In this document: one piece after another, positions 26,303-50,665 of the stretch | Position numbering within the stretch: position 1 is the first letter of the stretch | Layout: each line of letters starts with the position of its first letter | Assembly: GCA_944325085.1 (NCBI GenBank) | Contig: CALUYT010000014.1 | Coordinates: 1 to 52,688 of the forward strand | Reading direction: 5' to 3' | Source of the DNA: Candidatus Gastranaerophilales bacterium | GTDB taxonomy: Bacteria; Cyanobacteriota; Vampirovibrionia; Gastranaerophilales; Gastranaerophilaceae | DNA length: 52,688 nt | The notes under the pieces: generated by a model | The model's database searches: none | Told to the model about the DNA's origin: nothing | The model's input: only the letters and a program-made list of their open reading frames with translations | Translations under genes and position numbers: made by a program

Positions 26303-26539
26303 TTACATTGAACCATGAAATGTTCTTGAAATAACATCATCTTGCTGCTCTTTCGTCAATTTTATAAAATTAACAGCATAACCTGATACTCTTACTGTTA
26401 ATTGAGGATACTTTTCAGGATGAGCTTGAGCATCTAATAATGTTTCACGATTAAATACGTTAACATTCAAATGATGTCCGCCTTTTTCAACATAACCATC
26501 TATTAAATTTATTAAATTTTCTTCTTGCATTGTTGCCAT
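26303..26539 (-). CDS. Pyruvate formate-lyase, separate glycyl-radical subunit
   Basis: The 78-residue protein equals the C-terminal piece of a full-length pyruvate formate-lyase: the end of the core (NLINLIDGY), [16 protein letters not shown], and the glycyl-radical loop RVSGYAVNF with Gly53 as radical site. It has its own strong ribosome site (AAAGGAAA) and its own ATG. The frame is the same as the large gene upstream, but TAA, TAG, TGA, TAA and TAA stops lie between. The large subunit lacks this domain, so both are needed for activity. This differs from E. coli GrcA, which is a spare copy beside a complete enzyme. Confidence 0.9.
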
Positions 26540-26587
26540 AAATTATTTCCTTTCAAATATTTATCAAATTATCTAACATTTTAAAGA

Positions 26588-28672
26588 TTAATTTAAATTT
26601 GTTTCACTACACCCGCAATCAAAACAAACACTTAAATCGCCAAAAAATACTTCATCTTTACCCAATGCGTTAGGGATTATAGAAAATGTATTTGAAATTC
26701 CATCTTGAGCATCATCAAACGGTAATTTTGCAACTGAAGCCAATGACGCCACTGCACCATTAGTATCTCTGCCATGCATAGGATTAGCACCAGGAGCTAA
26801 AGGAATACCGGCTTTTCTACCATCTGGAGTGTTACCTGTTTTTTTACCATAAACCACATTTGAAGTTATAGTTAATATAGACATAGTCGGAATAGAATTT
26901 CTATAAGTATAATGTTTTCTAATCTTTGACATAAAGTTTCTAACCAAATCAACTGCGATCTGATCAACTCTATCATCATTATTTCCGTATTTAGGGAAAT
27001 CTCCTTCTACATCATAATCTACAACTATACCGTTTTCATCTCTTATGGTTTTAACCTTAGCATATTTTATTGCTGATAAAGAATCCGCAACGACAGACAA
27101 CCCTGCAATACCTGTTGCAAAGTATCTTTTTACATCTCTATCATGAAGTGCCATTTGCGCTCTTTCATAACAATATTTATCATGCATATAATGAATTACG
27201 TTCAAAGTGTTTACATATAATCCTGCAAGCCACTCCATCATATCATCATATTTTTCCATAACTTCGTCATAATCCAAATATTCAGAAGTTATAGGACGAT
27301 ATTTTGGTCCGACTTGAGTTTTTAATCTTTCATCTATACCGCCATTTATTGCATACAATAAACATTTAGCTAAATTAGCTCTAGCTCCAAAAAATTGCAT
27401 TTCTTTACCAACTACCATTGACGATACACAACAAGCAATTGCATAATCATCACCATGAGTTACCCTCATTAAATCATCATTTTCATATTGTACTGATGAA
27501 GTTTTTATAGAAATGCGGGCACAATATTCTTTAAATTTATGAGGTAACATTTTTGACCAAAGTACAGTCATGTTAGGTTCCGGAGCTGTACCAAGATTTT
27601 CTAATGTATGCAAGTATCTAAACGAGTTCTTAGTTACCAAAGGTCTGCCATCAACACCAACCCCACCTATTGACTCAGTAACCCAAGTCGGATCACCTGA
27701 GAATAATTCATTATATTCAGGCGTTCTGGCAAATTTCACAAGTCTTAGCTTCATTATAAAATGGTCAATCATTTCTTGAGCTTGAGCTTCAGTTATGATA
27801 CCTTCTTTCAAATCTCTTTCGATATATATATCTAAAAATGTAGAAGTTCTACCAATACTCATAGCTGCACCGTTTTGTTCTTTTATTGCAGCTAAATATC
27901 CAAAATATAACCACTGTATAGCTTCTTTAGCATTTCTGGCAGGTTTAGATATATCAAATCCATAGATTTTACCTAACTCAATCATCTCACCTAAAGCTCT
28001 AATTTGTTCTGAGATTTCTTCTCTTAGTTGAATTCTATCAGGTGTCATCTCACCTTCTAAGGATTTGAATTGTTCTTTTTTATCTTCAATAAGTCTATCA
28101 ATACCATACAATGCAACTCTTCGATAATCACCAATAATTCTGCCTCTTCCATAAGCATCAGGTAAACCTGTAATAATAGCAGAATGTCTTGCTGCCTTCA
28201 TTTCAGGAGTATAAACATCAAAAACACCTTGATTATGAGTTTTTCTATATTTTGTAAAAATTTCAGATACCTCAGAATCAACTTCATAGCCATAAGATTT
28301 GCATGAAGCTTCAGCCATTCTTATACCACCAAACGGTTGCATTGAACGCTTAAGCGGAGCATCTGTTTGCAAACCTACAATAGTTTCTAAATCTTTATCT
28401 ATATATCCTGCGCCATGAGAAGTTATTGTAGATACAATTTTTGTATCCATATCAAGAACTCCACCGTTAGCACGTTCTTTTTTAAATAAATCACAACACT
28501 CTTGCCATAATTTTTTAGTGGCATCTGTTGGTTCTTCTAAAAAGCTTGCATCACCTTCATATAATGTATAATTCTTTTGAATAAAATCTCTTACATTTAT
28601 TTCTTTTTCCCAAGAACCGGATACAAAAGAGGTTTCCGGGTAAATCTTTTTATCCAGCATTGTTTCTACCAT
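26588..28672 (-). CDS. pflB: Pyruvate formate-lyase, large subunit lacking the glycyl-radical domain
   Basis: This enzyme cleaves pyruvate with CoA to acetyl-CoA and formate. The 694-residue chain has the PFL body with the catalytic Cys pair C414/C415 in AIACCVSSM and the late segment [18 protein letters not shown]. The normal protein continues about 60-70 residues to the radical glycine. Here it switches to a short unrelated tail with three cysteines ([11 protein letters not shown]) and stops. The missing part is the next gene, 48 bases on. AGGGAGA precedes the ATG. Confidence 0.93.
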
Positions 28673-28855: not shown

Positions 28856-30904
28856 TTATGCAGCATCTGGTTTTCTGGTGAAATATTTATAAGCACCGGC
28901 AGCTGCAACAACAACACTTGTGATAATCAAGGCAGGTTTTATATATTTATTTTTCTTTACTGATTTTTCAACTGAATTTGCTCCAGGTTTATCTATTGAA
29001 ATCGCTTCTTCAACAACAGACTGTACAGGAGGGTTTTTAGTTCCTTGTTCTGTCACTTCTTCAACTTTAGGATTTGCATTTGCAACACCTATACCATATA
29101 GTTTATTTTTAAACTCAACAATTTTCGCAAACAATTCAGGATGTTCATTATCATAACCTTTAGCTTTAAAGATTTTTTCAAATGCATCCATCAAATTAAA
29201 TGCGTGTCCTGTTTTTACGGCATCATAATATGCTTGTTCAGGATTTGCAGGAATTTTTACTCTAAAGCTTTCTTTAGTTGCCCTTGCTACATCACTAAAA
29301 GTTCTATCTGAACCGAAAAATTCTGTAAAGAACATAAAATTATTCTTTGCTAAAAGAGGCTCTGCATTTTTTGCTCTTATAAACTCATTAGTATCTTCTA
29401 AAGTTTTTGTATCGAGATTTAATATAGAACCTAATTCTTTTACTTGGTTTTCCTTACGCTGAGTGTATATACCATGAGTAGCCAATTCTACCAATGGAGT
29501 TGTATCAACCTTTGAGGCGCCATACATATAATCAGATGCCGGAATTTTAAAATTGTCTGAATAAGCTCTGCTTGAACCCCAACCTCTTTTCATATAATCA
29601 GATGTATAAATTTTTACCCTATCTCTTAATGGTTCTAACAATGAACCATCATCGTTAAAGGCTTTAAAATCTTTTTCTCCTGCCTCAACTTCGTAAAAGA
29701 TATCTTTTGGATTATAATTTTCACCCTTAACACTTTTTACAGCATTTTCAATTAATTCTAAAACACTTGAACCCATATATTTTTGTTCATGATATGAACC
29801 TTCAGAGTTTCTCAACATTGGAGTTACATACCCCCAACCTGTCTCAACTCTTATAGTATCATATCTGCTGGCTGCAAGAGCAAATTTTTGAGCTAAAAGT
29901 TTTGCTGCCGGGCTATTTTGATCAGTTATTTGATAAAAATTCAATGCAGGAATTTTTTTATCCAAAGGTCCCATGTAAACGTCATAAGAAAATGCTTTTG
30001 GATTACTAAACATATCACTTAAAGGGAATTGATAAGCAACATCTCCACCAAATTTTAAACCTTTTTCGTGGGCCTTATCTCTTGCCAACCCTAAAAATTT
30101 ATCTGATAAAAATTTCTTAAATTTATAAAATTCAATATCACTTGCATTTTCACTTAATATTTTAGCTTTTCTAGCATCTCTTGCTTCTTGAGAAAAATCA
30201 GGATCGTACAATTTTTTATCAACTTCTTCACCCCAATGGTCAAATAATGGAGTATTATATTTTTTTGATAAAACTTCATAAATACCATGAGATTCTAACC
30301 ATTGCGCATTCTTAGCGCTATACGCATCATACTCAGAACGTAAAGCTTTTATTTGTTCGCTTTCTCCTGTTTTAAAACGTTCATATGCTTTTTTTAGCAT
30401 TTTATCAAAAGGACTATTTGGAGCAACAACATTTTCAAAATTGGCTAAAACATCCTTACATTCTCCATTATTTGCAGATACAACCTCTTTTAATTCCTCT
30501 GGAGTAATAATTTTTCCGAATTTATCATCTAATAAAAGCTCAGGCTCAATTAAATGAGTACTTAAAGCTTGAGATGAAGTTTTATAAGGAGTGTAAAAAC
30601 CTCCATCAGGAGCAGCCATATATTCACCTGACGGAACATCTTGAATTACATTTGCAGTAGTAAATGTTTTTACAACATCTAAAAACTCCTCACCTTGTTT
30701 AGATAATAATGTTCCTGTTCCTGTATTTGATTCCGGAGCTTGGGGCAAACAGGCACTTGAATATATAAATACAGATTTTTCAGGCCTACCTATTACATCT
30801 AATGCTGATTCTTTTGTTTTAATAAATGCTTCTTTTTCTTCCTTTGTTAAATTCCCAAAATTTACATTCGAACTTCTAAAATTTTGAATTGCCCCAATTT
30901 GCAT
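28856..30904 (-). CDS. GH77-like protein with altered active site and C-terminal membrane anchor
   Basis: The 682-residue protein aligns by eye with the 4-alpha-glucanotransferase (GH77) at 48629-50665: WLESHGIYEVLSKKYNTPLF and the following FYKFKKFLSDKFLGLARDKA, KGLKFGGDVAYQF, NPKAF. The nucleophile motif R-x-D becomes RVE (352-354), and the region matching T-G-x-H-D reads YGASKVD (461-467). A glutamate near the acid/base position (E405) remains. A Thr/Glu-rich linker leads to one C-terminal helix (YIKPALIITSVVVAAAGAYK, about 654-672). The N-terminal NFRSSNVNFG stretch is not part of GH77. It is likely a membrane-tethered pseudoenzyme or changed-specificity enzyme. GGGGGAAA precedes the ATG. 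Confidence 0.75.
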   Translation of the reverse strand: MQIGAIQNFRSSNVNFGNLTKEEKEAFIKTKESALDVIGRPEKSVFIYSSACLPQAPESNTGTGTLLSKQGEEFLDVVKTFTTANVIQDVPSGEYMAAPDGGFYTPYKTSSQALSTHLIEPELLLDDKFGKIITPEELKEVVSANNGECKDVLANFENVVAPNSPFDKMLKKAYERFKTGESEQIKALRSEYDAYSAKNAQWLESHGIYEVLSKKYNTPLFDHWGEEVDKKLYDPDFSQEARDARKAKILSENASDIEFYKFKKFLSDKFLGLARDKAHEKGLKFGGDVAYQFPLSDMFSNPKAFSYDVYMGPLDKKIPALNFYQITDQNSPAAKLLAQKFALAASRYDTIRVETGWGYVTPMLRNSEGSYHEQKYMGSSVLELIENAVKSVKGENYNPKDIFYEVEAGEKDFKAFNDDGSLLEPLRDRVKIYTSDYMKRGWGSSRAYSDNFKIPASDYMYGASKVDTTPLVELATHGIYTQRKENQVKELGSILNLDTKTLEDTNEFIRAKNAEPLLAKNNFMFFTEFFGSDRTFSDVARATKESFRVKIPANPEQAYYDAVKTGHAFNLMDAFEKIFKAKGYDNEHPELFAKIVEFKNKLYGIGVANANPKVEEVTEQGTKNPPVQSVVEEAISIDKPGANSVEKSVKKNKYIKPALIITSVVVAAAGAYKYFTRKPDAA

Positions 30905-31072
30905 AAAAAATTTCCCCCATTAAATATCTATTTATTTTTTATTTTAAGATGCGCAAAAATTTCTATTATTTATAATATCTCTATAGAAACAATTAACTCT
31001 TTTTTTTAGAATAGCATAATAATAAATTATATGTAAATAGTTCTTTATTATTACCCCAATATCACTATAAAA

Positions 31073-31159
31073 CAGAGAGGATGGGATTCGAACCCACGGT
31101 GAAGTTACCCTCACACAACCTTTCCAAGATTGCACCTTAAGCCACTCGGACACCTCTCT
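31073..31159 (-). tRNA. tRNA-Ser (anticodon GGA)
   Basis: Class II tRNA on the minus strand: acceptor AGAGAGG/CCTCTCT, discriminator G, anticodon stem CAATC/GGTTG with loop TTGGAAA (anticodon GGA), long variable arm, T-loop TTCGAAT. CCA is not encoded. It follows the DUF2997 gene but has its own promoter. Confidence 0.93.
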
Positions 31160-31167
31160 ATATTCCA

Positions 31168-31207: not shown

Positions 31208-31417
31208 TTATATATCATAATTTTTTTCGGTTGCATCAGTTTCAATATTTAGAACTTCAGGTTCATAATATTCTTCAGTTCTTTCAATACTGGATATTTT
31301 TGAATCAGTAAGTTTTTCTAAAACTTTAGCATAATCCATACATCTCTTACCTTTTATACCTTCGGTTTCCATTTGAATTGTACCATCCGGAAACAAGCGT
31401 ATTTTCATCTTACCCAT
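31208..31417 (-). CDS. DUF2997-like small protein
   Basis: The 69-residue protein has the family core KIRLFPDGTIQMETEGIKGK, then a helix ending CMDYAKVLEKL and an acidic tail. DUF2997 proteins have no known activity and occur beside Ycf35/DUF1257 proteins and Ycf46-type ATPases, as here. AAAGGA precedes the ATG; the gap to the Ycf35-like gene is 13 bases. It is the last protein gene of the run. Its beta-hairpin stretch resembles the C-terminus of the radical SAM protein at 34359-34964. Confidence 0.75.
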   Translation of the reverse strand: MGKMKIRLFPDGTIQMETEGIKGKRCMDYAKVLEKLTDSKISSIERTEEYYEPEVLNIETDATEKNYDI

Positions 31418-31430
31418 ATATTTTCCTTTA

Positions 31431-32693
31431 TTAAACCTCGACAGTCAAAACTATTGAATTATCTTCCAAAACAGTTTCACTTTCCAATCGCATATTTTCT
31501 TTATCTAAACGTTCTTTTATCTTGTTGTATGTCATTTCCTGAATATTTAGACCATATTCATCATTCAAATCTGTTATAAGCCCTTCGCACTCTTTCATAT
31601 TTGAAACTTGGGTTATATCTAAAGTGTAACCTTGAGAATTATCTTTTTTATAATAAACCATTTCCATTCCAAAAAGCTTACAAGATATCTCATCACCTGT
31701 TTCAACTATTTCTTCTGCACCATGCTCAGTTAGGGTATTTAATAATATACCCTTGTCTGTATAATTTGTTTTGTATGTATATACAACAGTTGATTCATCA
31801 TTAATTAATCTTAAATCTCTACCTGCTGCTATATTTAACTTTCTGAATATTATCTCAGCTTCTTTTGTTATTGCAGCGTTATTAAGTCCAGAAAATTCTG
31901 CAACATAATAGCCGTTTTTCATAACCCAATTCAATGTCGCATTGCTGTTTTTTAATGGAGTTTGAGCATCTGCTTCATAATATAAATACTTAGCAGCTTT
32001 CAATAGTGTTTTTAATTCTTCTTTTTTTATATTTGTCTGAATTTTTAAATTTGTAAGTCCATAAGTTACATTTGTACCTTCACAATCACCATTTAAGCCT
32101 ATATTTAATATTGTTACCTTTTGTTCAACTTCTAATAAAAATTCTGAAGAACTTTGCGGTTTAAAATATTTAAGATTCTGACCATTCATAATTGCAACAA
32201 CTTCATTATCTGATGTTGAAAAAATTTGAGTAGCACCCTCATTTTTTAACACAGAATATATTTCAGACAATTTTGTATAGAAAGTTTCATATATATAATA
32301 AAAATATTCATGAGAATCAATTAATCTAACATTTCGTTGAGCAATAGAATCCAAATCTTTAAAGAATGCCTCTCCCTTAGCTTGCAAATCATCATTATCC
32401 AAGCCGCCAGAAAGTTCAACATATAAATATTTACCTCTAACAACAAAATTAATATTTATGCCTGAATCTAATTTAAAAGTATTTGCACCCAATTCTATAC
32501 AATCAACTCTATTCATCAAGTAAGATAATTCATCATACTTGATATTGGTTAAAACTTTTATATATTTTAATTTTTGTTCGGCATTAGAATTATTAACAGG
32601 TTGTTCATCAGAAGCTTTTTTTATCTTTTCGGCTTTAGCTTCTTCCGGATTTATTAAAAATGCCATTGGATAAGCCATCAATGTTATTGACAT
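31431..32693 (-). CDS. Ycf35/DUF1257-like protein with two similar halves
   Basis: The 420-residue protein has two similar halves. Each has a repeat-like unit: YYIYETFYTKLSEIYSVLKN-EGATQI (about 130-155) and VVYTYKTNYTDKGILLNTLT-EHGAEEI (about 305-330), each preceded by a segment with LDSIAQRNVRLID or LNIAAGRDLRLIN. The C-terminal 50 residues (LNDEYGLNIQEMTYNKIKER, ending in VLEDNSIVLTVEV) resemble the end of Ycf35/DUF1257 proteins. Normal Ycf35 is about 110-130 residues, so this is an enlarged, duplicated form. No enzyme motif is seen. Its gene order beside Ycf46-type and DUF2997 genes supports the call. Confidence 0.6.
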   Translation of the reverse strand: MSITLMAYPMAFLINPEEAKAEKIKKASDEQPVNNSNAEQKLKYIKVLTNIKYDELSYLMNRVDCIELGANTFKLDSGININFVVRGKYLYVELSGGLDNDDLQAKGEAFFKDLDSIAQRNVRLIDSHEYFYYIYETFYTKLSEIYSVLKNEGATQIFSTSDNEVVAIMNGQNLKYFKPQSSSEFLLEVEQKVTILNIGLNGDCEGTNVTYGLTNLKIQTNIKKEELKTLLKAAKYLYYEADAQTPLKNSNATLNWVMKNGYYVAEFSGLNNAAITKEAEIIFRKLNIAAGRDLRLINDESTVVYTYKTNYTDKGILLNTLTEHGAEEIVETGDEISCKLFGMEMVYYKKDNSQGYTLDITQVSNMKECEGLITDLNDEYGLNIQEMTYNKIKERLDKENMRLESETVLEDNSIVLTVEV

Positions 32694-32716
32694 TATTTAT
32701 ATTGACCTTTCTTTTT

Positions 32717-34339
32717 CTAAACGTCTAAAGCTCTACCGCCTCTAGAATTTGTAATATCACTATCTTCATCAGTATTTGATGAATATTGAGCCATATCATC
32801 TTTTTGAGTTGCTGCAACAGCTCTTATATTAGCCCACTGACGAAGCGATAATATCTGTTCTTTTTGCGTTACGGAAAGAGGTACGGTATTTTTGATTGTA
32901 GTTTCCAAATCTGCAAATTCTAAAGGTCGTTTGCTAAAGAAAGCTTCATATAAAGCACTTATAACAACCTGCTCGATTTCTGCACCTACAAAACCTTCCG
33001 TCATACTTGCTAATTTTGAATATAAATCATCATTTAATTCCAATTTACTAGCAACTTCTTTATCTTTTAAACGCTTTGTTAAATGCAATCTAAAAATTTC
33101 TTTTCGTTCTCTTTGAGTAGGCAAATCTACAAAAAATATTTCATCAAAACGCCCTTTTCTTAGTAATTCTGCAGGTAAACTACTGATATTATTTGCCGTA
33201 GCTATAACAAATACTGGAGCTGTTTTTTCTTGCATCCAAGTCAAAAATGTACCAAATATTCTTGATGATGTTCCACTATCTCCATTTGAATTAATACCAC
33301 TTAAACTCTTTTCTATTTCATCAACCCATAAAATAGATGGAGCTACAGCTTCTGCAGTTTTTATTGCTCTGCGCATATTTTCTTCAGAACTTCCTACTAT
33401 ACCTGAGAAAATTTTACCAAAATCCAATTTTAATAAAGGTAATTGCCAAGCTGCACTCATAGCCTTTGCAGTTAAACTTTTACCACAACCAGGTACACCT
33501 GTTATTAAAACACCCTTTGGGGCAGGAAGACAATATTTTTTAGCTGATTCTGACCAAGAATTATTGCGCTTATTTAACCAATTTTTTAAATTTTCCAAAC
33601 CACCTATATCAGAAATACTTATATCCGTATTGATAAATTCCAAAATTCCGGTTTTTCTAATAACTTGCATTTTTTCACTCAAAATAATGCTCAAATCTTT
33701 ACCATCAATTTTTCCGTCATTAACCATTGCCAATGCAAAAGCATTCTCAGCTTCTTGTAATGTTAAACCTAAAGCGGCCTTACATAAACGTTCTTTGCCT
33801 TCTTCATCTAAATCTACAGTATCAATTTGATTATTTTGAGTAATCATTTTATCTAACTTTGCCTTGATTTCTTCCAATGTTGGTAACGGCATATCTAAAA
33901 GTGTTATCTCTTTTTGCATAGTTTCAGGTATTAAAACTTCTGAAGCTAAAAAGATAACATTTTTTCTATATTTACTGGTTTTTAATTCTCCAATAATATC
34001 TCTTAATTTTCTAACAACATTATAATCAACTTGGCGACCTTTCACACCAAAATACACGTGGAAATCACACAAAACAAATACAGCATTTTTATTTGCTTCT
34101 TTTATAAAATCAATAGCTTTATCAGGACTGTTTGTACCATCAATTTTTTGTCCGTTTAACGTAAAACCATTTGTCTGTGTCCAAATATAAACATCTCTTG
34201 TAAATCTTATTAGTTTTTCTGATTTAGCAATTTTATTAATTAAAGCAATAGCCCTTTCTTCTTCCCAAGTTGTCAAATATATATATGGAAATCTTGCTCT
34301 AAATAATCTTGATAATTGTACAATTATATTTTTCATCAT
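32717..34339 (-). CDS. ycf46: Ycf46-type AAA+ ATPase
   Basis: This 540-residue ATPase has the Ycf46 build: an N-terminal alpha/beta domain (FPYIYLTTWEEERAIALINK, with VFVLCDFHVYF), then a single AAA+ module. Walker A is GVPGCGKS (281-288), Walker B ILWVDE (336-341), sensor-1 TANN (391-394), and the typical RKGRFDEIFFVDLPTQRERK follows. Ycf46 is conserved in cyanobacteria and plastids, with a reported link to carbon use; the biochemical role is unclear. The C-terminus ends in an acidic Ser/Asp stretch and GGRALDV, a tail shared with the two HhH proteins upstream. Gaps of 19 and 23 bases to its neighbours mark an operon. Confidence 0.9.
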   Translation of the reverse strand: MMKNIIVQLSRLFRARFPYIYLTTWEEERAIALINKIAKSEKLIRFTRDVYIWTQTNGFTLNGQKIDGTNSPDKAIDFIKEANKNAVFVLCDFHVYFGVKGRQVDYNVVRKLRDIIGELKTSKYRKNVIFLASEVLIPETMQKEITLLDMPLPTLEEIKAKLDKMITQNNQIDTVDLDEEGKERLCKAALGLTLQEAENAFALAMVNDGKIDGKDLSIILSEKMQVIRKTGILEFINTDISISDIGGLENLKNWLNKRNNSWSESAKKYCLPAPKGVLITGVPGCGKSLTAKAMSAAWQLPLLKLDFGKIFSGIVGSSEENMRRAIKTAEAVAPSILWVDEIEKSLSGINSNGDSGTSSRIFGTFLTWMQEKTAPVFVIATANNISSLPAELLRKGRFDEIFFVDLPTQRERKEIFRLHLTKRLKDKEVASKLELNDDLYSKLASMTEGFVGAEIEQVVISALYEAFFSKRPLEFADLETTIKNTVPLSVTQKEQILSLRQWANIRAVAATQKDDMAQYSSNTDEDSDITNSRGGRALDV

Positions 34340-34358
34340 TTCAAACCCTCTTCTGCAA

Positions 34359-34964
34359 CTATTTTACATTATTTCCGCCCAATTGTAAACAAAAAGACTC
34401 TTTAACCTTTGCAAAATCCCCCATTCCGTTTATTTCTAAACGTCCATCAGGCATAACATGCATCTCTATTTTATTTTTATACTTTGAAATTTGCTCAGAA
34501 TTATATTTATCAGTAAGAAAAATATACCTCTGATTTAATGAACCTACCCAAGGTCTTGAAAGATCAAATTTATCTTGTTCAAATCCTCCATCAATTAACA
34601 AATCAATATAATGCAAAAATTCATCTGCATAAATATTTTTACCTGATATTAACTGCTCATATGTATAACCTGTAAAGCAAACCACAGATAAATTCAATGA
34701 CTTAATCAATTTAGCAAGTTTTGATAATTCTTCAGATTGTTCAAAAGGTTCACCTCCAAGAAAAGTTACACCCTCAATATTTTTTTGTTTTTTTATCATA
34801 TCGAAAAGTTGTTCAACAGAATATTTTTTTCCACAATCAAATTCCCAAGTGTCTTTAGCCCAACACCCCAAACATCTTTTCTTACAACCTTGAACCCAAA
34901 TACAAAACCTATTTCCAGGACCTTCTACTGTAGTATTCTCAATTATTTTATAAATATCTAACAT
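34359..34964 (-). CDS. Radical SAM protein, NrdG-like
   Basis: The 201-residue protein resembles the anaerobic ribonucleotide reductase activase family. It has VEGPGNRFCIWVQGCKKRC with cluster cysteines C27-x3-C31-x2-C34, then FLGGEPFEQ for SAM binding and the DLLIDGGFE and LNQRYIF segments. No NrdD lies nearby, the cysteine motif ends GCW rather than GCHN, and the gene is embedded in the Ycf46-type run, so a role other than NrdD activation is likely. The last 35 residues (KIEMHVMPDGRLEINGMG) resemble the DUF2997 protein of the same run. The gap to the HhH gene is two bases. Confidence 0.85.
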   Translation of the reverse strand: MLDIYKIIENTTVEGPGNRFCIWVQGCKKRCLGCWAKDTWEFDCGKKYSVEQLFDMIKKQKNIEGVTFLGGEPFEQSEELSKLAKLIKSLNLSVVCFTGYTYEQLISGKNIYADEFLHYIDLLIDGGFEQDKFDLSRPWVGSLNQRYIFLTDKYNSEQISKYKNKIEMHVMPDGRLEINGMGDFAKVKESFCLQLGGNNVK

Positions 34965-34966
34965 TT

Positions 34967-35893
34967 TTAAAAATCAATTATTCTACCTTCATAAGTATCA
35001 TCATCTGAATTTCCAGACTTAGGATCTTCCATTATTACCCTAGCCTTAATTTTATCTATAAAATGATCCTTAACTTCCGCTACATTTATAAAATCATCAA
35101 TATTTGTAAATAATCCATTTTTATCTCGATATTCTACAATTTTTTTAGCTATAACAATATTTATGCCGGGTAAAACAGAAAGCTCACTTGATGTAGCTGT
35201 ATTTATATTAATTTTATGAGAAGAAACAATATCTTGTAATTCCACAAATGACTGAGTTTTTTCTTCTCTTTCCTTTTCCTGCGGTCTTTCTTTTATACTA
35301 TTTAATTCTACAAAATTTTCTTTTACTTCTCTTGGCTTTTCTGTGCCTTTTGTATAAGAATCCGGCGTTATTTCACCCATTTCTACAAATTTAGGTCCGG
35401 AATTTGAAACATCAATATTAACTTCATGTTTTTCTATTTTCTTGACTTTTGCTTCAATTGTCTTTAATTCAATTTTAGTATCATAACTATAAAAAGATGC
35501 TAAAGAATCCAGAGTTATAAATTCATCAAAAATTCTGCATACTCTATTCCAAGATTTGTTTATATTTACTTTTCCTTTTGTCAATGTGAACATTCTTTTT
35601 GCATGAGTTTTATCTGCAACATTATCCATAACAATGATTTTTTCATCAGGAGAATACATAACAGTGCAGTGCTCATTACTTATAGTATTATGTCCTGACA
35701 CAAATCTTTTTGGAACCATTGTAATACTTGATCTATACAATTTATCAAGAAATATATGACGCAAGATTAATACCGGTACCATTAAAACTAAAAATACCGC
35801 AAGTGAAAAATTTGCTAATTGAGGTGAGAAATACATAAGAGATGCATATACCACCACCACAGAAGCTATAAAATATCTTAATCGTCTAAACAT
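34967..35893 (-). CDS. HhH membrane protein with GRIIDF tail (paralog 1)
   Basis: The 308-residue protein has two N-terminal membrane helices (residues 5-25 and 29-48), a conserved beta-rich domain (about 60-165), a charged linker, and a ComEA-like helix-hairpin-helix domain (about 225-290: ININTATSSELSVLPGINIV, then AKKIVEYRDKNG). ComEA HhH domains bind DNA, but similar HhH pairs also bind proteins. After a Ser/Asp linker it ends YEGRIIDF. The next gene upstream is a full-length paralog with the same end. It lies two bases before the radical SAM gene, so it belongs to that operon. Confidence 0.78.
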   Translation of the reverse strand: MFRRLRYFIASVVVVYASLMYFSPQLANFSLAVFLVLMVPVLILRHIFLDKLYRSSITMVPKRFVSGHNTISNEHCTVMYSPDEKIIVMDNVADKTHAKRMFTLTKGKVNINKSWNRVCRIFDEFITLDSLASFYSYDTKIELKTIEAKVKKIEKHEVNIDVSNSGPKFVEMGEITPDSYTKGTEKPREVKENFVELNSIKERPQEKEREEKTQSFVELQDIVSSHKININTATSSELSVLPGINIVIAKKIVEYRDKNGLFTNIDDFINVAEVKDHFIDKIKARVIMEDPKSGNSDDDTYEGRIIDF

Positions 35894-35958
35894 ACAATAT
35901 TAAAATAACACATCTAAAAATTTATCAATGATATAAATAGATGATTTTCTATAAAACA

Positions 35959-36801
35959 CTAAAAATCTACAATTCTTCCTGAACCATCATCATTATCTTT
36001 ATCTGTCGTTGTTTGAGATTTACCTATCAAAATCATCGATTTAATTTTATCAACAAAATGAGGTTTTACGCCGGCAATTTTTATAAAATCATCTTCTGAT
36101 TTAAATAAACCATTTTTATTTCTATATTCAACAACTTTCTTAGCACCGACAATATTAACTCCAGGAAGATTTGCTATTTCTTCTGATGAAGCGTTATTTA
36201 TATCAATTTTTGAAACCTTATTTGTTGTAACTTTAACCGAACTATCTTTACCTTTATTTTCAACAACATTTGATTTTGATTCTGTCAAACCAGAAGCATT
36301 TTGAGCCACAGCCTCAGTAGCCATATCCTTTATAGGCTTGGTTGCATAAGTTACAATATTAACATACACTTCTAAATTACAAAATGTAGCCAATGAATCT
36401 AAGTTTGTATTTTCATCATACATCTTACATATTTTATTCCACATTTCATTTATTTTTATATCTTTTTGATTTAACACAAACATTCTTTTGGCATTATTAT
36501 AACCATAATCATTATCAAGAACTACAATTTTTTGTCCTGGAGTTAAAACAACTGAACAAAATCGATTACGTATAGATGAAGAACTTTGAACCAAATGTTT
36601 TGGAACTAAAGATGTACTGTGTTTCACATAGAGCCTATCTGCAAAAAACAGCTTAGCAAGGTACAATATAATAGCCAAGACTAAAAAGCTTGCATATATA
36701 TAACTAGCCAAACTCACCCCTAATTCACGAAAGGCACCGAATGACAAAAACATAATTGCCATAATATAAATTACCGGATGTCTTCTGTGATAAATACTCA
36801 T
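35959..36801 (-). CDS. HhH membrane protein with GRIVDF tail (paralog 2)
   Basis: The 280-residue paralog of the next gene has the same order: two membrane helices, the domain with SLVPKHLVQSSSSIRNRFCS and QKIVVLDNDYGYNNAKRMFV, a linker and the HhH domain (KIDINNASSEEIANLPGVNI, then AKKVVEYRNKNG). It ends DGSGRIVDF after an acidic linker. No Shine-Dalgarno; TATAAA with an upstream TGT ends seven bases before the ATG, so this is probably the leaderless first gene of the run ending with DUF2997. Its start faces aroA across 64 bases. Confidence 0.78.
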   Translation of the reverse strand: MSIYHRRHPVIYIMAIMFLSFGAFRELGVSLASYIYASFLVLAIILYLAKLFFADRLYVKHSTSLVPKHLVQSSSSIRNRFCSVVLTPGQKIVVLDNDYGYNNAKRMFVLNQKDIKINEMWNKICKMYDENTNLDSLATFCNLEVYVNIVTYATKPIKDMATEAVAQNASGLTESKSNVVENKGKDSSVKVTTNKVSKIDINNASSEEIANLPGVNIVGAKKVVEYRNKNGLFKSEDDFIKIAGVKPHFVDKIKSMILIGKSQTTTDKDNDDGSGRIVDF

Positions 36802-36865: not shown

Positions 36866-38146
36866 ATGCAAAAAACAATTTCTAAAAATTTTAAAACTCT
36901 TCAAGGGTCAATAACCATACCTGCCGACAAATCAATTTCGCATAGAGCAGTTATATTTTCTGCCCTTGCAAAGGGTAAATCCACTATAAAAAACTTTTCA
37001 GACGGTCAAGATCCAAAATCTACACTTAATATATTTAAAGCTTTAGGTGTAGATATAGAAATTACAACAAATAATAAATTAATAATAAATTCTAAAGCTA
37101 AACTTTTACCCCCAACAGGAAGACTTGATTGCGGAAATTCCGGAACAAGTATGAGACTTATTGCCGGAATACTTGCAAGACAAAAATTCAACTCAATTTT
37201 AATAGGTGATCAAAGTCTTTCAAAACGACCTATGAAAAGAATTATTGAGCCACTAACTTTAATGGGCGCACATATTGAAACAAAAAAATACACTGCACCA
37301 CTAAAAATACAAGGACAAAAACTACACCCGATTGAATATAAAACACCAAAAGCATCAGCACAAGTAAAATCTTGTATCATACTCGCCGGACTAGGTGCTG
37401 ACGGAGGGAAAACAAAAATAACAGAGCCTTATTTATCTCGTAACCACACAGAAATAATGCTAAAACATATGGGCGCAAATATTGAACAAAACGGACTTAC
37501 AATATCCGTTGAAAAATCAGAATTATCGCCAATAGATATTGAAATTTGTGGAGATATATCTTCTGCTGCATATTTTATAGCCGCAGCATTATTAATTCCT
37601 GACTCAAAAATCATTTTAAAAAATATAGGACTAAACCCTACAAGAACAGGAATTCTCGACATTTTAAAAACTATGGAAGCTAATATAACTATAATTGATA
37701 AAAAAAATATATGCGGAGAAGATGTTGGCGATATATCTGTTGAATATTCAGAATTAAAAGGTTGTGAAATATCAGGAGAGATTATACCTCGACTTATTGA
37801 TGAACTTCCTATTATAGCAGTAATTGCAACCCAAGCTGAAGGAACAACAACAATAAAAGATGCTCAAGAACTAAGAGCAAAAGAATCCGATAGAATAAAA
37901 GCTACAGTTGATGAACTAAAAAAATTAGGTGCAGATATTGAAGAAGCTGAAGACGGAATGATTATACACGGAAAAACAAAACTTATAGGCAATTGTAGTG
38001 TAGAAACATATAGAGATCACCGCCTAGCAATGAGTTTATATATTGCAGGTTTAATTTGCGAAAAAGAAATTACCATAAACAATTTTCAATGGGTAAATAT
38101 ATCATTCCCAAAATTTGAAGAACTTTTCGAAAGTTTAAAAGCCTAA
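36866..38146 (+). CDS. aroA: EPSP synthase (3-phosphoshikimate 1-carboxyvinyltransferase)
   Basis: AroA joins shikimate-3-phosphate and phosphoenolpyruvate, the sixth shikimate-pathway step. The 426-residue enzyme has the substrate-binding start PADKSISHRAVIFSALA, the PEP-site motif LDCGNSGTSMRLIAG, SLSKRPMKRIIEPL, DISSAAYFIAAAL and the late ELRAKESDRIKA and YRDHRLAMS. These resemble Bacillus/Agrobacterium-type enzymes, but the class is not certain from eye alone. It is a single-gene unit with a leaderless-type promoter. It ends five bases from the convergent permease gene, with no hairpin between. Confidence 0.95.
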   Translation: MQKTISKNFKTLQGSITIPADKSISHRAVIFSALAKGKSTIKNFSDGQDPKSTLNIFKALGVDIEITTNNKLIINSKAKLLPPTGRLDCGNSGTSMRLIAGILARQKFNSILIGDQSLSKRPMKRIIEPLTLMGAHIETKKYTAPLKIQGQKLHPIEYKTPKASAQVKSCIILAGLGADGGKTKITEPYLSRNHTEIMLKHMGANIEQNGLTISVEKSELSPIDIEICGDISSAAYFIAAALLIPDSKIILKNIGLNPTRTGILDILKTMEANITIIDKKNICGEDVGDISVEYSELKGCEISGEIIPRLIDELPIIAVIATQAEGTTTIKDAQELRAKESDRIKATVDELKKLGADIEEAEDGMIIHGKTKLIGNCSVETYRDHRLAMSLYIAGLICEKEITINNFQWVNISFPKFEELFESLKA

Positions 38147-48628: not shown

Positions 48629-50665
48629 CTATTCAACATCAGAAGATTCATATAAATCATTCATCATTTTCACATAATCATCGGCCAAATCTTTATATCC
48701 AGGATTTATACCACTTTTATTTACTCTATCAAGAAATCCTTTTGGAAAGACTCTGCTCCAATATGGTAACAATGCTTCCGGCGTTGTTTTCATAAGATAT
48801 TTATCATTCATTCCATTCCAATATCCGGGAATATTTGGACGATAATAAATACCTAAAGCATCTTGCAAAGTTGTTTGTACCTGTTTTATGTTATCTTGAG
48901 TATAATGCCATTTCATCAACTCTTTAAATACTAAATCTCTATCTTGCATTTCTTCTTCTGTTAAATTTAATTCTTCCTCACAGAACTGTTTAAACAATGC
49001 AGGAGAACTGTTACTATCCATATCTTCCGATAAGTTATCTAATAACAAATCTACATAATCTTTTAATGGCGGCAAATCATGATTACCTGTCAATACAGCA
49101 ATGTTAGATTGTTTTTTCAAATTAGCAGGATAAGACAAATTGTTTATATTTTGTTCTTCAGATAAATTTTCACCAATACCCATTGCTATTGGAATTCTTT
49201 GACTTATAAAATCTTTTCCAAAATGTTTTTTAAAGTCTTGATAAGCCTTAGTTTCTGCTAATGGTCCAAAATCTTCTAACACATAGCTATCTTCTGGCTT
49301 TTTACCTTCTTCTTTTGCTACACGCTTAAATAACTCAAACATATTCTCACCTTTTGAATTTGTCTTTTTATCAATTCTGACAATCCAATCTGGTTCAAAA
49401 AAAGCTTTTCCCATACCACCTTTTTCAACAGGCGCAAAAATCTCATCTCCTTTTAAAATACGTCCATCAGGGGTTTCGTATTCTGTTGGAATTTCGGCTC
49501 TGTTTATATAGCCAACAAAATGATCTAAGCGCAAATCTCCTTCATTTATTAATTTTCTGATAGAAGCCTCTTGGTATTCCCAAAACTTAGGAGAATCATA
49601 ATCATATAAAGCGTGTCCCCAAACTTGAGTTCTTGGGTATGCAGCTTCTGGCGGGCAACCACTAACTTTTTCAGGATAAAATTTATCATTTAGCAAAAAC
49701 ATATCCTTATTTGCCCATACATCTACACCATTTGGGTTTACACCAATTGCTAAATCTAAAATCAGATTTATACCCTTTTCATCAAGTTCTTCTTTAAATT
49801 GTTTGAATTGTTTATCAAATAAAAATTGCTCAAATTTATATAACTCAACTTGTTTTATAACTTTTCGCTGCTCTGATTTTCCAAAATCCTCATCTAATAG
49901 CTCTGATAACATTTTATTTAATGATAATCCGCTATTTTGCGCATCTTCAGGCAATGTCTGATATTTAATTGGCCAATCATGCCAGTTATCACCATATTTG
50001 GAAGAAATACCATTATAAGCTGCATAAGTATTTAACCATAATTTGCCATTTTCTTTTACAAAATTTTTATACTCAAGCTTCAATGGGTGATTTGAATCCA
50101 ATTTTAAAAATCTATCATAAGCCTTTTCAAATCGTGGATTTTTTTGAGCTTGTAACATCTGTAATGTAAAAGATAAAGGCGTAACATCATCAGGTAATTC
50201 TGATTTTTTCAATAATCCACCATATTCAGGTTTTACTAATTCGTTTAAATTTACTAAATAAATATTTTTACTAAATCTTCCTGAAGCATTATAAGGACAT
50301 AAATCATCACCAACCGCAAATAACGGATTCATTATCCAATGAGTTTGCTTTGACTTTTGTAAAAAATCAATAAATTTATCAGTTTCTGGATCTAAAAATT
50401 GTCCACAGTATGACCTTGTCGCAGGTAAATTTGATATATTGAAAAGCATTCCTCTTTGCTTAACTTTCCCTTTTCCATCAACACCGGTAAATGAAATTAC
50501 ATTATATAAATTTTTAGATGAAGGAACATCTGATGATTTTATAAAACAGTCAGAAACTACAGAATTATTTAATTTATTTATAAAATTAGGTCTGACAGAA
50601 TTATTCGATATATAATCACCATATTTGAAAGATTTTATATTAACCCCAATAGAATCTACTTGCAT
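48629..50665 (-). CDS. malQ: 4-alpha-glucanotransferase-like GH77 enzyme
   Basis: This family transfers glucan chains during glycogen or maltodextrin metabolism. The 678-residue protein has the GH77 signatures: WANKDMFLLN, the nucleophile motif RLDHFVGYI (Asp381), VLEDFGPLAE (Glu464, acid/base) and TGNHDLPP (Asp530). H-D-L-P-P replaces the common T-H-D-N-D, as in other atypical GH77 members. The first 70 residues are not GH77 and are Asn/Ser-rich. AAGGGG precedes the ATG. The paralog at 28856-30904 has lost two of the three motifs. Confidence 0.85.
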   Translation of the reverse strand: MQVDSIGVNIKSFKYGDYISNNSVRPNFINKLNNSVVSDCFIKSSDVPSSKNLYNVISFTGVDGKGKVKQRGMLFNISNLPATRSYCGQFLDPETDKFIDFLQKSKQTHWIMNPLFAVGDDLCPYNASGRFSKNIYLVNLNELVKPEYGGLLKKSELPDDVTPLSFTLQMLQAQKNPRFEKAYDRFLKLDSNHPLKLEYKNFVKENGKLWLNTYAAYNGISSKYGDNWHDWPIKYQTLPEDAQNSGLSLNKMLSELLDEDFGKSEQRKVIKQVELYKFEQFLFDKQFKQFKEELDEKGINLILDLAIGVNPNGVDVWANKDMFLLNDKFYPEKVSGCPPEAAYPRTQVWGHALYDYDSPKFWEYQEASIRKLINEGDLRLDHFVGYINRAEIPTEYETPDGRILKGDEIFAPVEKGGMGKAFFEPDWIVRIDKKTNSKGENMFELFKRVAKEEGKKPEDSYVLEDFGPLAETKAYQDFKKHFGKDFISQRIPIAMGIGENLSEEQNINNLSYPANLKKQSNIAVLTGNHDLPPLKDYVDLLLDNLSEDMDSNSSPALFKQFCEEELNLTEEEMQDRDLVFKELMKWHYTQDNIKQVQTTLQDALGIYYRPNIPGYWNGMNDKYLMKTTPEALLPYWSRVFPKGFLDRVNKSGINPGYKDLADDYVKMMNDLYESSDVE

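Follow-up and report, generated by a model that had tools for sequence, protein, structure and literature searches.

Three protein families conserved in cyanobacteria, Ycf46, Ycf35 (DUF1257), and DUF2997, have no known biochemical role; Ycf35 and Ycf46 are conserved in algal plastids as well. Many stresses elicit a response of the cyanobacterial slr0373-slr0374(ycf46)-slr0376 operon, which has no known function; loss of ycf46 lowers the activity of the carbonic anhydrase EcaB (PMC7496141). A second conserved cyanobacterial cluster consists of DUF2997, ycf35, and fed7, of which fed7 is dispensable (PMC4284462). Here, we analyze a six-gene module of a gut bacterium, Candidatus Gastranaerophilales bacterium, in which a Ycf46-type AAA+ ATPase, a DUF1257-like protein, and a DUF2997 protein are encoded together with a radical SAM enzyme and two HhH proteins. 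The module lies on contig CALUYT010000014.1 of assembly GCA_944325085.1; "the window" refers to the whole stretch of 52,688 nucleotides that was analyzed, and G000 to its own genome (1.89 Mb, 96% complete), whose nearest matches lie in the Gastranaerophilales (Melainabacteria). The six genes form a system rather than a group of chance neighbors, and the AAA+ ATPase and both HhH proteins end in a shared short tail. This sharing suggests an undescribed form of protein marking for one machine.

An earlier note on this DNA described six same-strand genes at 31208-36801 with most gaps of 2 to 23 bases. All six open reading frames were found at these positions on the minus strand; HhH2 and HhH1 are 65 bases apart, and the subsequent gaps are 2, 19, 23, and 13 bases. 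The genes, the codons of the three tails, and the two borders of the module are as follows.

35959..36801, minus strand: HhH2; N-terminal hydrophobic hairpin, ComEA-type HhH_3 domain, C-terminal tail GRIVDF
34967..35893, minus strand: HhH1; N-terminal hydrophobic hairpin, ComEA-type HhH_3 domain, C-terminal tail GRIIDF
34359..34964, minus strand: NrdG-like radical SAM enzyme; CxxxCxxC, GGEPF, C-terminal extension
32717..34339, minus strand: AAA+ ATPase; first AAA module without P-loop, second intact, C-terminal tail GGRALDV
31431..32693, minus strand: DUF1257/Ycf35-like protein, 420 residues; candidate adaptor without a tail, modeled with four repeated beta-alpha units
31208..31417, minus strand: DUF2997 protein; candidate adaptor without a tail, GxKGxxC conserved
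35959..35979, minus strand: HhH2 tail codons (GRIVDF-stop)
34967..34987, minus strand: HhH1 tail codons (GRIIDF-stop)
32717..32737, minus strand: AAA+ tail codons (GRALDV-stop)
31072..31160, minus strand: tRNA-Ser(gga), one border of the module
36866-38146, plus strand: aroA, the opposite border of the module

Like the module, cyanobacterial loci of the slr0373-0376 type, which we equated with that operon by gene order and size rather than by accession, encode a Ycf46-type AAA+ ATPase and, after it, a genuine DUF1257 protein (PF06868, E 6e-21), and 21 loci have AAA+ ATPases with a related tail, [RQ][ML]E[FW]. Unlike the module, they lack HhH, radical SAM, and DUF2997 genes, and their AAA+ ATPases form a separate clade. 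The DUF2997-Ycf35-Fed7 cluster resembles the module in that DUF2997 adjoins DUF1257 and an iron-sulfur protein is present; it differs in that a [4Fe-4S] ferredoxin replaces the radical SAM enzyme, with neither an AAA+ ATPase nor a tailed protein in the cluster. The open-licence papers searched contain no description of this system or its tail, and none of those found to name DUF2997 or DUF1257 studies how a joint system functions. This machine seems to be undescribed, as do the list of its parts and its tag, and the working mode that we infer is that of known AAA+ machines with adaptors and recognition motifs.

In the window, the AAA+ ATPase ends in SRGGRALDV, HhH1 in TYEGRIIDF, and HhH2 in DGSGRIVDF, and the same ending is absent from all other surveyed window proteins. 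We scored a strict form of the tail, R-x-[IVLM]-[DE]-[IVLFMWY]-COOH, over all loci. It ends 54 of 60 nonredundant HhH proteins and 4 of 1,402 background proteins of the same loci (Fisher p 1.6e-86, which is nominal, since the rows are related); composition alone would lead one to expect 0.04 such endings among the 60 HhH proteins. Three of the four tailed background proteins are operon neighbors (two in locus L116 and one in L122) and are likely partners, and the fourth is a DUF2997 protein. Among cellular AAA+ proteins, 55/100 carry the strict motif. A survey of G000 with a DNA pattern of the [GDE]R form, which covers G, E, or D before the arginine, returned eight matches genome-wide, and only those of the AAA+ ATPase, HhH1, and HhH2 close gene-length frames.

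Unrelated membrane proteins also carry the tail or a close variant: TPR proteins, some of which contain a degenerate HhH, and Mrr_cat endonuclease-like proteins. These carriers come from L116 and from the second modules of genomes G022 and G008 described below. Looser pairs of endings are encoded by an IncA/C-type plasmid (GRKLAIGD on the AAA+ protein, KRKIILD on two other proteins) and by a Streptococcus satellite phage (TRKVLV on the AAA+ protein, NRKIKI on a 573-residue protein).

We examined conservation of the module in 59 genomes, comprising G000 and 58 relatives, and checked gene order in 20 fetched regions. The AAA+ gene and the DUF1257-like gene have identical patterns of presence and absence, both occurring in the same 27/59 genomes. 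Orthologues of the module-type radical SAM enzyme (at least 48% identity) were found in 26 of these 27 module-positive genomes, and HhH genes in all 27 and in two further genomes. The order HhH, radical SAM, AAA+, DUF1257-like, DUF2997 is kept in 19/20 regions, even where the flanks differ; three of the 20 show no aroA flank. Because the AAA+ and DUF1257-like genes are present together across the 59 genomes and the gene order persists at different flanks, we regard the six genes as a system. The earlier note had held that the idea of a system fails if the genes are neighbors here only and scattered in close relatives, with no predicted contacts; the set is instead conserved across phyla. The explanation by chance neighbors or unrelated housekeeping genes has nothing in its favor beyond the generic nature of the AAA+ and radical SAM families, and it is refuted by co-occurrence, by order conserved across phyla, and by the shared tail, so that we give it next to no credence.

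Within genus g1, the module is patchy, being present in 26/36 genomes. The HhH pair is a tandem duplication present in some relatives only. The DUF1257-like protein has about 420 residues in most of the genus and about 330 elsewhere, and another family has two separate short genes; because length and gene splitting vary in this way among relatives, the protein probably grew by duplication. G022 (L319) and G008 (L320) carry second, divergent copies of the module adjoining a serine recombinase and a Dam-like gene, with an integrase also adjoining the copy in G022. At the aroA locus of G020 (L321), the module has decayed or been lost, and a truncated HhH gene remains, adjoining tRNA-Ser genes. 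In G023 (L322), the module is lost and the AAA+ gene absent, and an intact orphan HhH gene beside aroA encodes no tail. The aroA loci of G020 and G023 are thus natural knock-outs of the module.

In a wider scan of about 85,000 species genomes, the module families occur together in Actinomycetota, Bacillota, Bacteroidota, Fusobacteriota, and Planctomycetota, with HhH undetected in the Planctomycetota occurrences. The archaeon Methanosphaera has part of the set, an AAA+ ATPase plus a tailed HhH protein. Plasmids carry the families as well: AAA+, DUF1257-like, DUF2997, HhH, and radical SAM genes are consecutive, in that order, on a Paenarthrobacter plasmid; a Paenibacillus polymyxa plasmid encodes AAA+, DUF1257, DUF2997, radical SAM, and two membrane proteins; and an IncA-type Escherichia coli plasmid encodes AAA+, a small protein at the DUF1257 position, and DUF2997. 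Plasmid matches to the radical SAM enzyme that lack a Ycf46-type AAA+ ATPase were put aside as belonging to other cassettes. One such recurrent cassette, on plasmids L091, L092, L094, and L096, consists of genes for a large AAA-domain protein, a PIN protein, a hypothetical protein, an AAA ATPase, and an NrdG-like radical SAM enzyme. A Treponema succinifaciens plasmid (L082) encodes a radical SAM enzyme and a tailed AAA+ protein (VRKLEM) within a contractile-injection-like gene cluster.

The window AAA+ ATPase has the degenerate first and active second AAA module that characterize the Ycf46 type, and it aligns over its full length with cyanobacterial Ycf46 members at about 45 to 48% identity, sharing invariant residues with them. 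In a tree built by a quick method, in which several forks are open, it groups with Clostridia and other full systems (fork value 98), its branch being sister to Clostridia, and 23 cyanobacterial Ycf46 sequences form a separate clade (value 100) on a long stem. Shared descent with cyanobacterial Ycf46 is not borne out by this placement outside the cyanobacterial clade, and we rejected vertical descent of the AAA+ ATPase from a cyanobacterial Ycf46.

We also searched three large phage records that contain DUF2997 and AAA+ genes (G441, G442, and G443) for tails by pattern search and frame checking. G441 encodes about ten tailed proteins, G443 about nine, and G442 a few; with gene counts assumed, binomial p is near 1e-12 for G441 and G443. 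The carriers include WGR, S77 prohead protease, YspA-SLOG, DUF3150, and small proteins, as well as a vWA-like protein assigned by eye, for which Pfam gives no match. The acidic position of the tail is E on both the AAA+ protein and its putative clients in phages, and mostly D on both in cells. No relative of the module radical SAM enzyme was detected in these three records, which may be fragments. Another phage locus, L178, encodes a natural fusion of DUF1257 and DUF2997, which supports the view that the two act together. In viral loci L180, L191, L193, and similar ones, we observed a conserved large-phage operon of eight constant-size genes around a related AAA+ gene whose product often ends in acidic EEDDL-like residues; no adjoining DUF1257 or DUF2997 gene was detected there.

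The predicted structure of the window AAA+ ATPase (pLDDT 87.6) is a double AAA module. Along its length it aligns with p97 D1-D2 (467 residues, Z 26.3) and equally with Pex1/Pex6, where 479 residues align at 4.3 A (Z 24.5). The model thus agrees with the earlier suggestion of an ATP-driven remodeler. CDC48/p97 and Pex1-Pex6 are adaptor-using machines, as we propose for the module AAA+ ATPase, and the first rings of Pex1/Pex6 are likewise degenerate. In the second module of the window protein, the Walker A, Walker B, sensor 1, and arginine finger motifs are intact, and RKGRFDE is present. Unlike p97/CDC48, which combines two ATP-binding modules with an N-domain, the protein has no Walker A in its first module and no p97-type N-domain; the alignment begins at p97 residue 208, and the p97 N-domain has no aligned segment. 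Across 52 sequences, the first module lacks the P-loop, EExR is invariant, and D-x-H is conserved, which suggests that this module may have a role of its own. The client signal would also differ, being a C-terminal tail in the module and ubiquitin in the CDC48/p97 type.

Of the two candidate adaptors, the DUF2997 protein passes its gathering cutoff (PF11211, E 2.7e-11, 43.6 bits versus 24.1), and the 420-residue protein has no Pfam match, falling short of the gathering cutoff of PF06868. We label it DUF1257-like, rather than a PF06868 member, because its residues 304-418 align with Ycf35 profiles (hhalign probability 87%, 112 columns with the ends included, pairwise E 4e-6), because of its operon position, and because its homologue in L103 scores near the threshold (PF06868 E 6e-4, 20.4 bits, slightly under the 22.2 cutoff). 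Its model (pLDDT 77.7, pTM 0.43) has four repeats of one beta-alpha unit. Where the earlier note described a Ycf35-like double protein, the model contains four units rather than two. Single units resemble beta2-adaptin (Z 9.7, 85 residues) and the SNF1/AMPK alpha C-terminal domain (Z 8.8, 76 residues); we drew no function from this TBP-like or appendage-platform fold, as the Z scores are little above the usual noise. An hhalign match between DUF2997 and DUF1257 was discarded as the probable product of a fused protein among the input sequences.

Both HhH proteins contain HHH_3 (PF12836, E 7.5e-19 and 1.9e-15) and score 52.3 and 48.8 bits against the whole-protein ComEA model TIGR01259, below its cutoff of 152. 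Their predicted N-terminal hydrophobic segments agree with the membrane location given by the earlier note, and across loci most HhH proteins have one or two such segments at the N terminus. The simplest predicted topology of the window pair would be a membrane hairpin with the HhH domain and the tail in the cytoplasm. The radical SAM enzyme (Pfam radical SAM/Fer4_12, E 2.5e-37; the AAA match of the ATPase is E 8.7e-30) has CxxxCxxC and GGE motifs and barely passes the cutoff of the NCBIfam NrdG model TIGR02491 (128.4 versus 126.1 bits). Its C-terminal extension, which has no counterpart in the canonical NrdG of the same genome, contains an NGMGDF-type motif; the extension might be a DUF2997 domain, which it matches over only a 16-column hairpin (probability 79%). 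The enzyme had been described as a radical enzyme without its NrdD partner; indeed, the NrdD of the genome (G000:C52) is encoded elsewhere, adjoining its own 163-residue NrdG, which makes activation of NrdD by the module enzyme unlikely. Sigma-70 promoter-like sites across the region do not exceed the count expected by chance.

Elsewhere in the window, a pyruvate formate-lyase (PFL) gene is split (26303-28672, minus strand): a 694-residue body ends before the glycine-radical loop, and a small open reading frame with its own start (about 26303-26539) carries an 11-residue segment, with a PFL activating enzyme gene downstream. The split may be either a natural two-piece enzyme or an assembly error. 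The window also encodes two GH77-like proteins of similar size. One (28856-30904, minus strand) has a partial 4-alpha-glucanotransferase match only, plus a C-terminal hydrophobic segment, and the other (48629-50665, minus strand) was assigned by eye.

From the anatomy, conservation, tail sharing, and predicted fold, we infer how binding, its direction, the adaptor role, radical chemistry, and purpose may fit together. At somewhat less than an even chance, the operon encodes a tail-directed AAA+ remodeling machine that finds its clients or partners by their tail, with DUF1257 and DUF2997 as candidate adaptors. The tail, in the form R-x-[ILV]-[DE]-hydrophobic-COOH, would be a recognition and docking signal that brings tailed partners, here two membrane-anchored HhH proteins of DNA-binding type, to the AAA+ ring; DUF1257 and DUF2997 would probably be the adaptors that link tail and ring. 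The AAA+ ATPase's own tail would either tie it to the same adaptor or act as a built-in pseudo-substrate, and would compete for or share the receptor. ATP hydrolysis would then extract, disassemble, or switch the partners, which would be protein-DNA assemblies at the membrane. Because the tagged partners in the window are membrane HhH proteins, it is probably DNA-binding proteins at the membrane that are acted on. The radical SAM enzyme would have an accessory task, the modification or repair of one of the core components, with the tail itself independent of the enzyme; this radical-modification role is a guess.

Several observations weigh against a tail-directed machine of this composition. 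The place of the radical SAM gene is not absolute, as it is missing from its position in the module of G025 and from between the HhH and AAA+ genes in G028. Streptococcus and Fusobacterium AAA+ loci have tail-like ends with DUF1257 and DUF2997 undetected, which bears on the proposed tail receptor, and DUF1257/DUF2997 systems without a recognizable AAA+ tail exist. Tail loss along with module loss, which favors the proposal, is seen in one clean case only (G023), the other orphan (G020) being truncated. In the AAA+ monomer model, the last 20 residues have pLDDT 66-69 and the tail is not clearly docked, so that docking of the tail on the monomer is unsupported. Finally, the shared tail could mark members of a stable complex rather than clients, with the AAA+ ATPase, HhH proteins, and adaptors forming one membrane assembly joined through the tails and the ATPase acting on another target, for example bound DNA or a foreign protein. 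A tail on the AAA+ ATPase itself, seen in 55/100 cellular proteins, agrees better with a shared docking site than with a signal on substrates, and partners are often single operon genes. The functionally diverse set of roughly 9 to 10 tailed proteins in large phages would be more than expected of one complex, however, and HhH partners have expanded to at least four copies in some genomes (L125); we consider a purely structural assembly motif less likely than not.

We find it far less probable that the radical SAM enzyme acts on the tail as its substrate site, leaving a C-terminal modification or tag like those of radical-SAM-modified peptides. The enzyme's gene is present in nearly every cellular full system and, since NrdD has its own NrdG, the module enzyme is free for another target. 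But the multi-tailed phage records, which may be fragments, lack a relative of the enzyme, G028 retains tails without an adjacent radical SAM gene, and tail-like ends occur without one at the Streptococcus satellite and IncA/C plasmid loci, so that this explanation is unlikely as a general rule. A further alternative is genome defense, in which a membrane HhH or Mrr nuclease catches incoming DNA and the AAA+ ATPase drives rejection or a suicidal response. This would suit the patchy distribution in g1, the presence of the module on plasmids and next to genes for an integrase, a serine recombinase, and a Dam-like protein, and the tailed membrane Mrr_cat proteins. Against it, a related AAA+/DUF1257 core is a stress-induced chromosomal operon in cyanobacteria (PMC7496141), phages encode the machinery themselves and have tails on structural proteins of their own, and PADLOC-DB anti-phage signatures gave only generic AAA and weak viperin-like radical SAM matches. 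The best PADLOC match was IetA, of the IetAS/TA-type pairs of AAA+ ATPase and S8 protease, whose AAA+ ATPase belongs, like that of the module, to the SpoVK/Ycf46/Vps4 group; unlike those pairs, the operon has no S8 protease, and the match is limited to the generic AAA core. Defense as such seems to us doubtful. A role of the proposed remodeling machine in the handling or rejection of foreign DNA, or in stress, is weakly indicated, because the module is patchy and mobile and can carry a nuclease client.

More broadly, and tentatively, the tail may belong to a C-terminal address-tag system widespread among bacteria, archaea, plasmids, and phages. In this system, a Ycf46-class AAA+ ATPase with DUF1257 and DUF2997 would read the tail on many unrelated proteins and determine whether they are extracted, activated, placed, or turned over, and the tag would co-evolve with the reader. 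The loci include cultivated hosts (Neobacillus, Paenibacillus aquistagni, Aneurinibacillus, Clostridium peptidivorans, and Microbacterium), and the five-residue tail is a cheap, concrete handle that can be deleted, fused, or used as bait. The tail would also predict clients from sequence alone, large phages included. If true, the address-tag reading would assign a function to Ycf46, Ycf35, and DUF2997.

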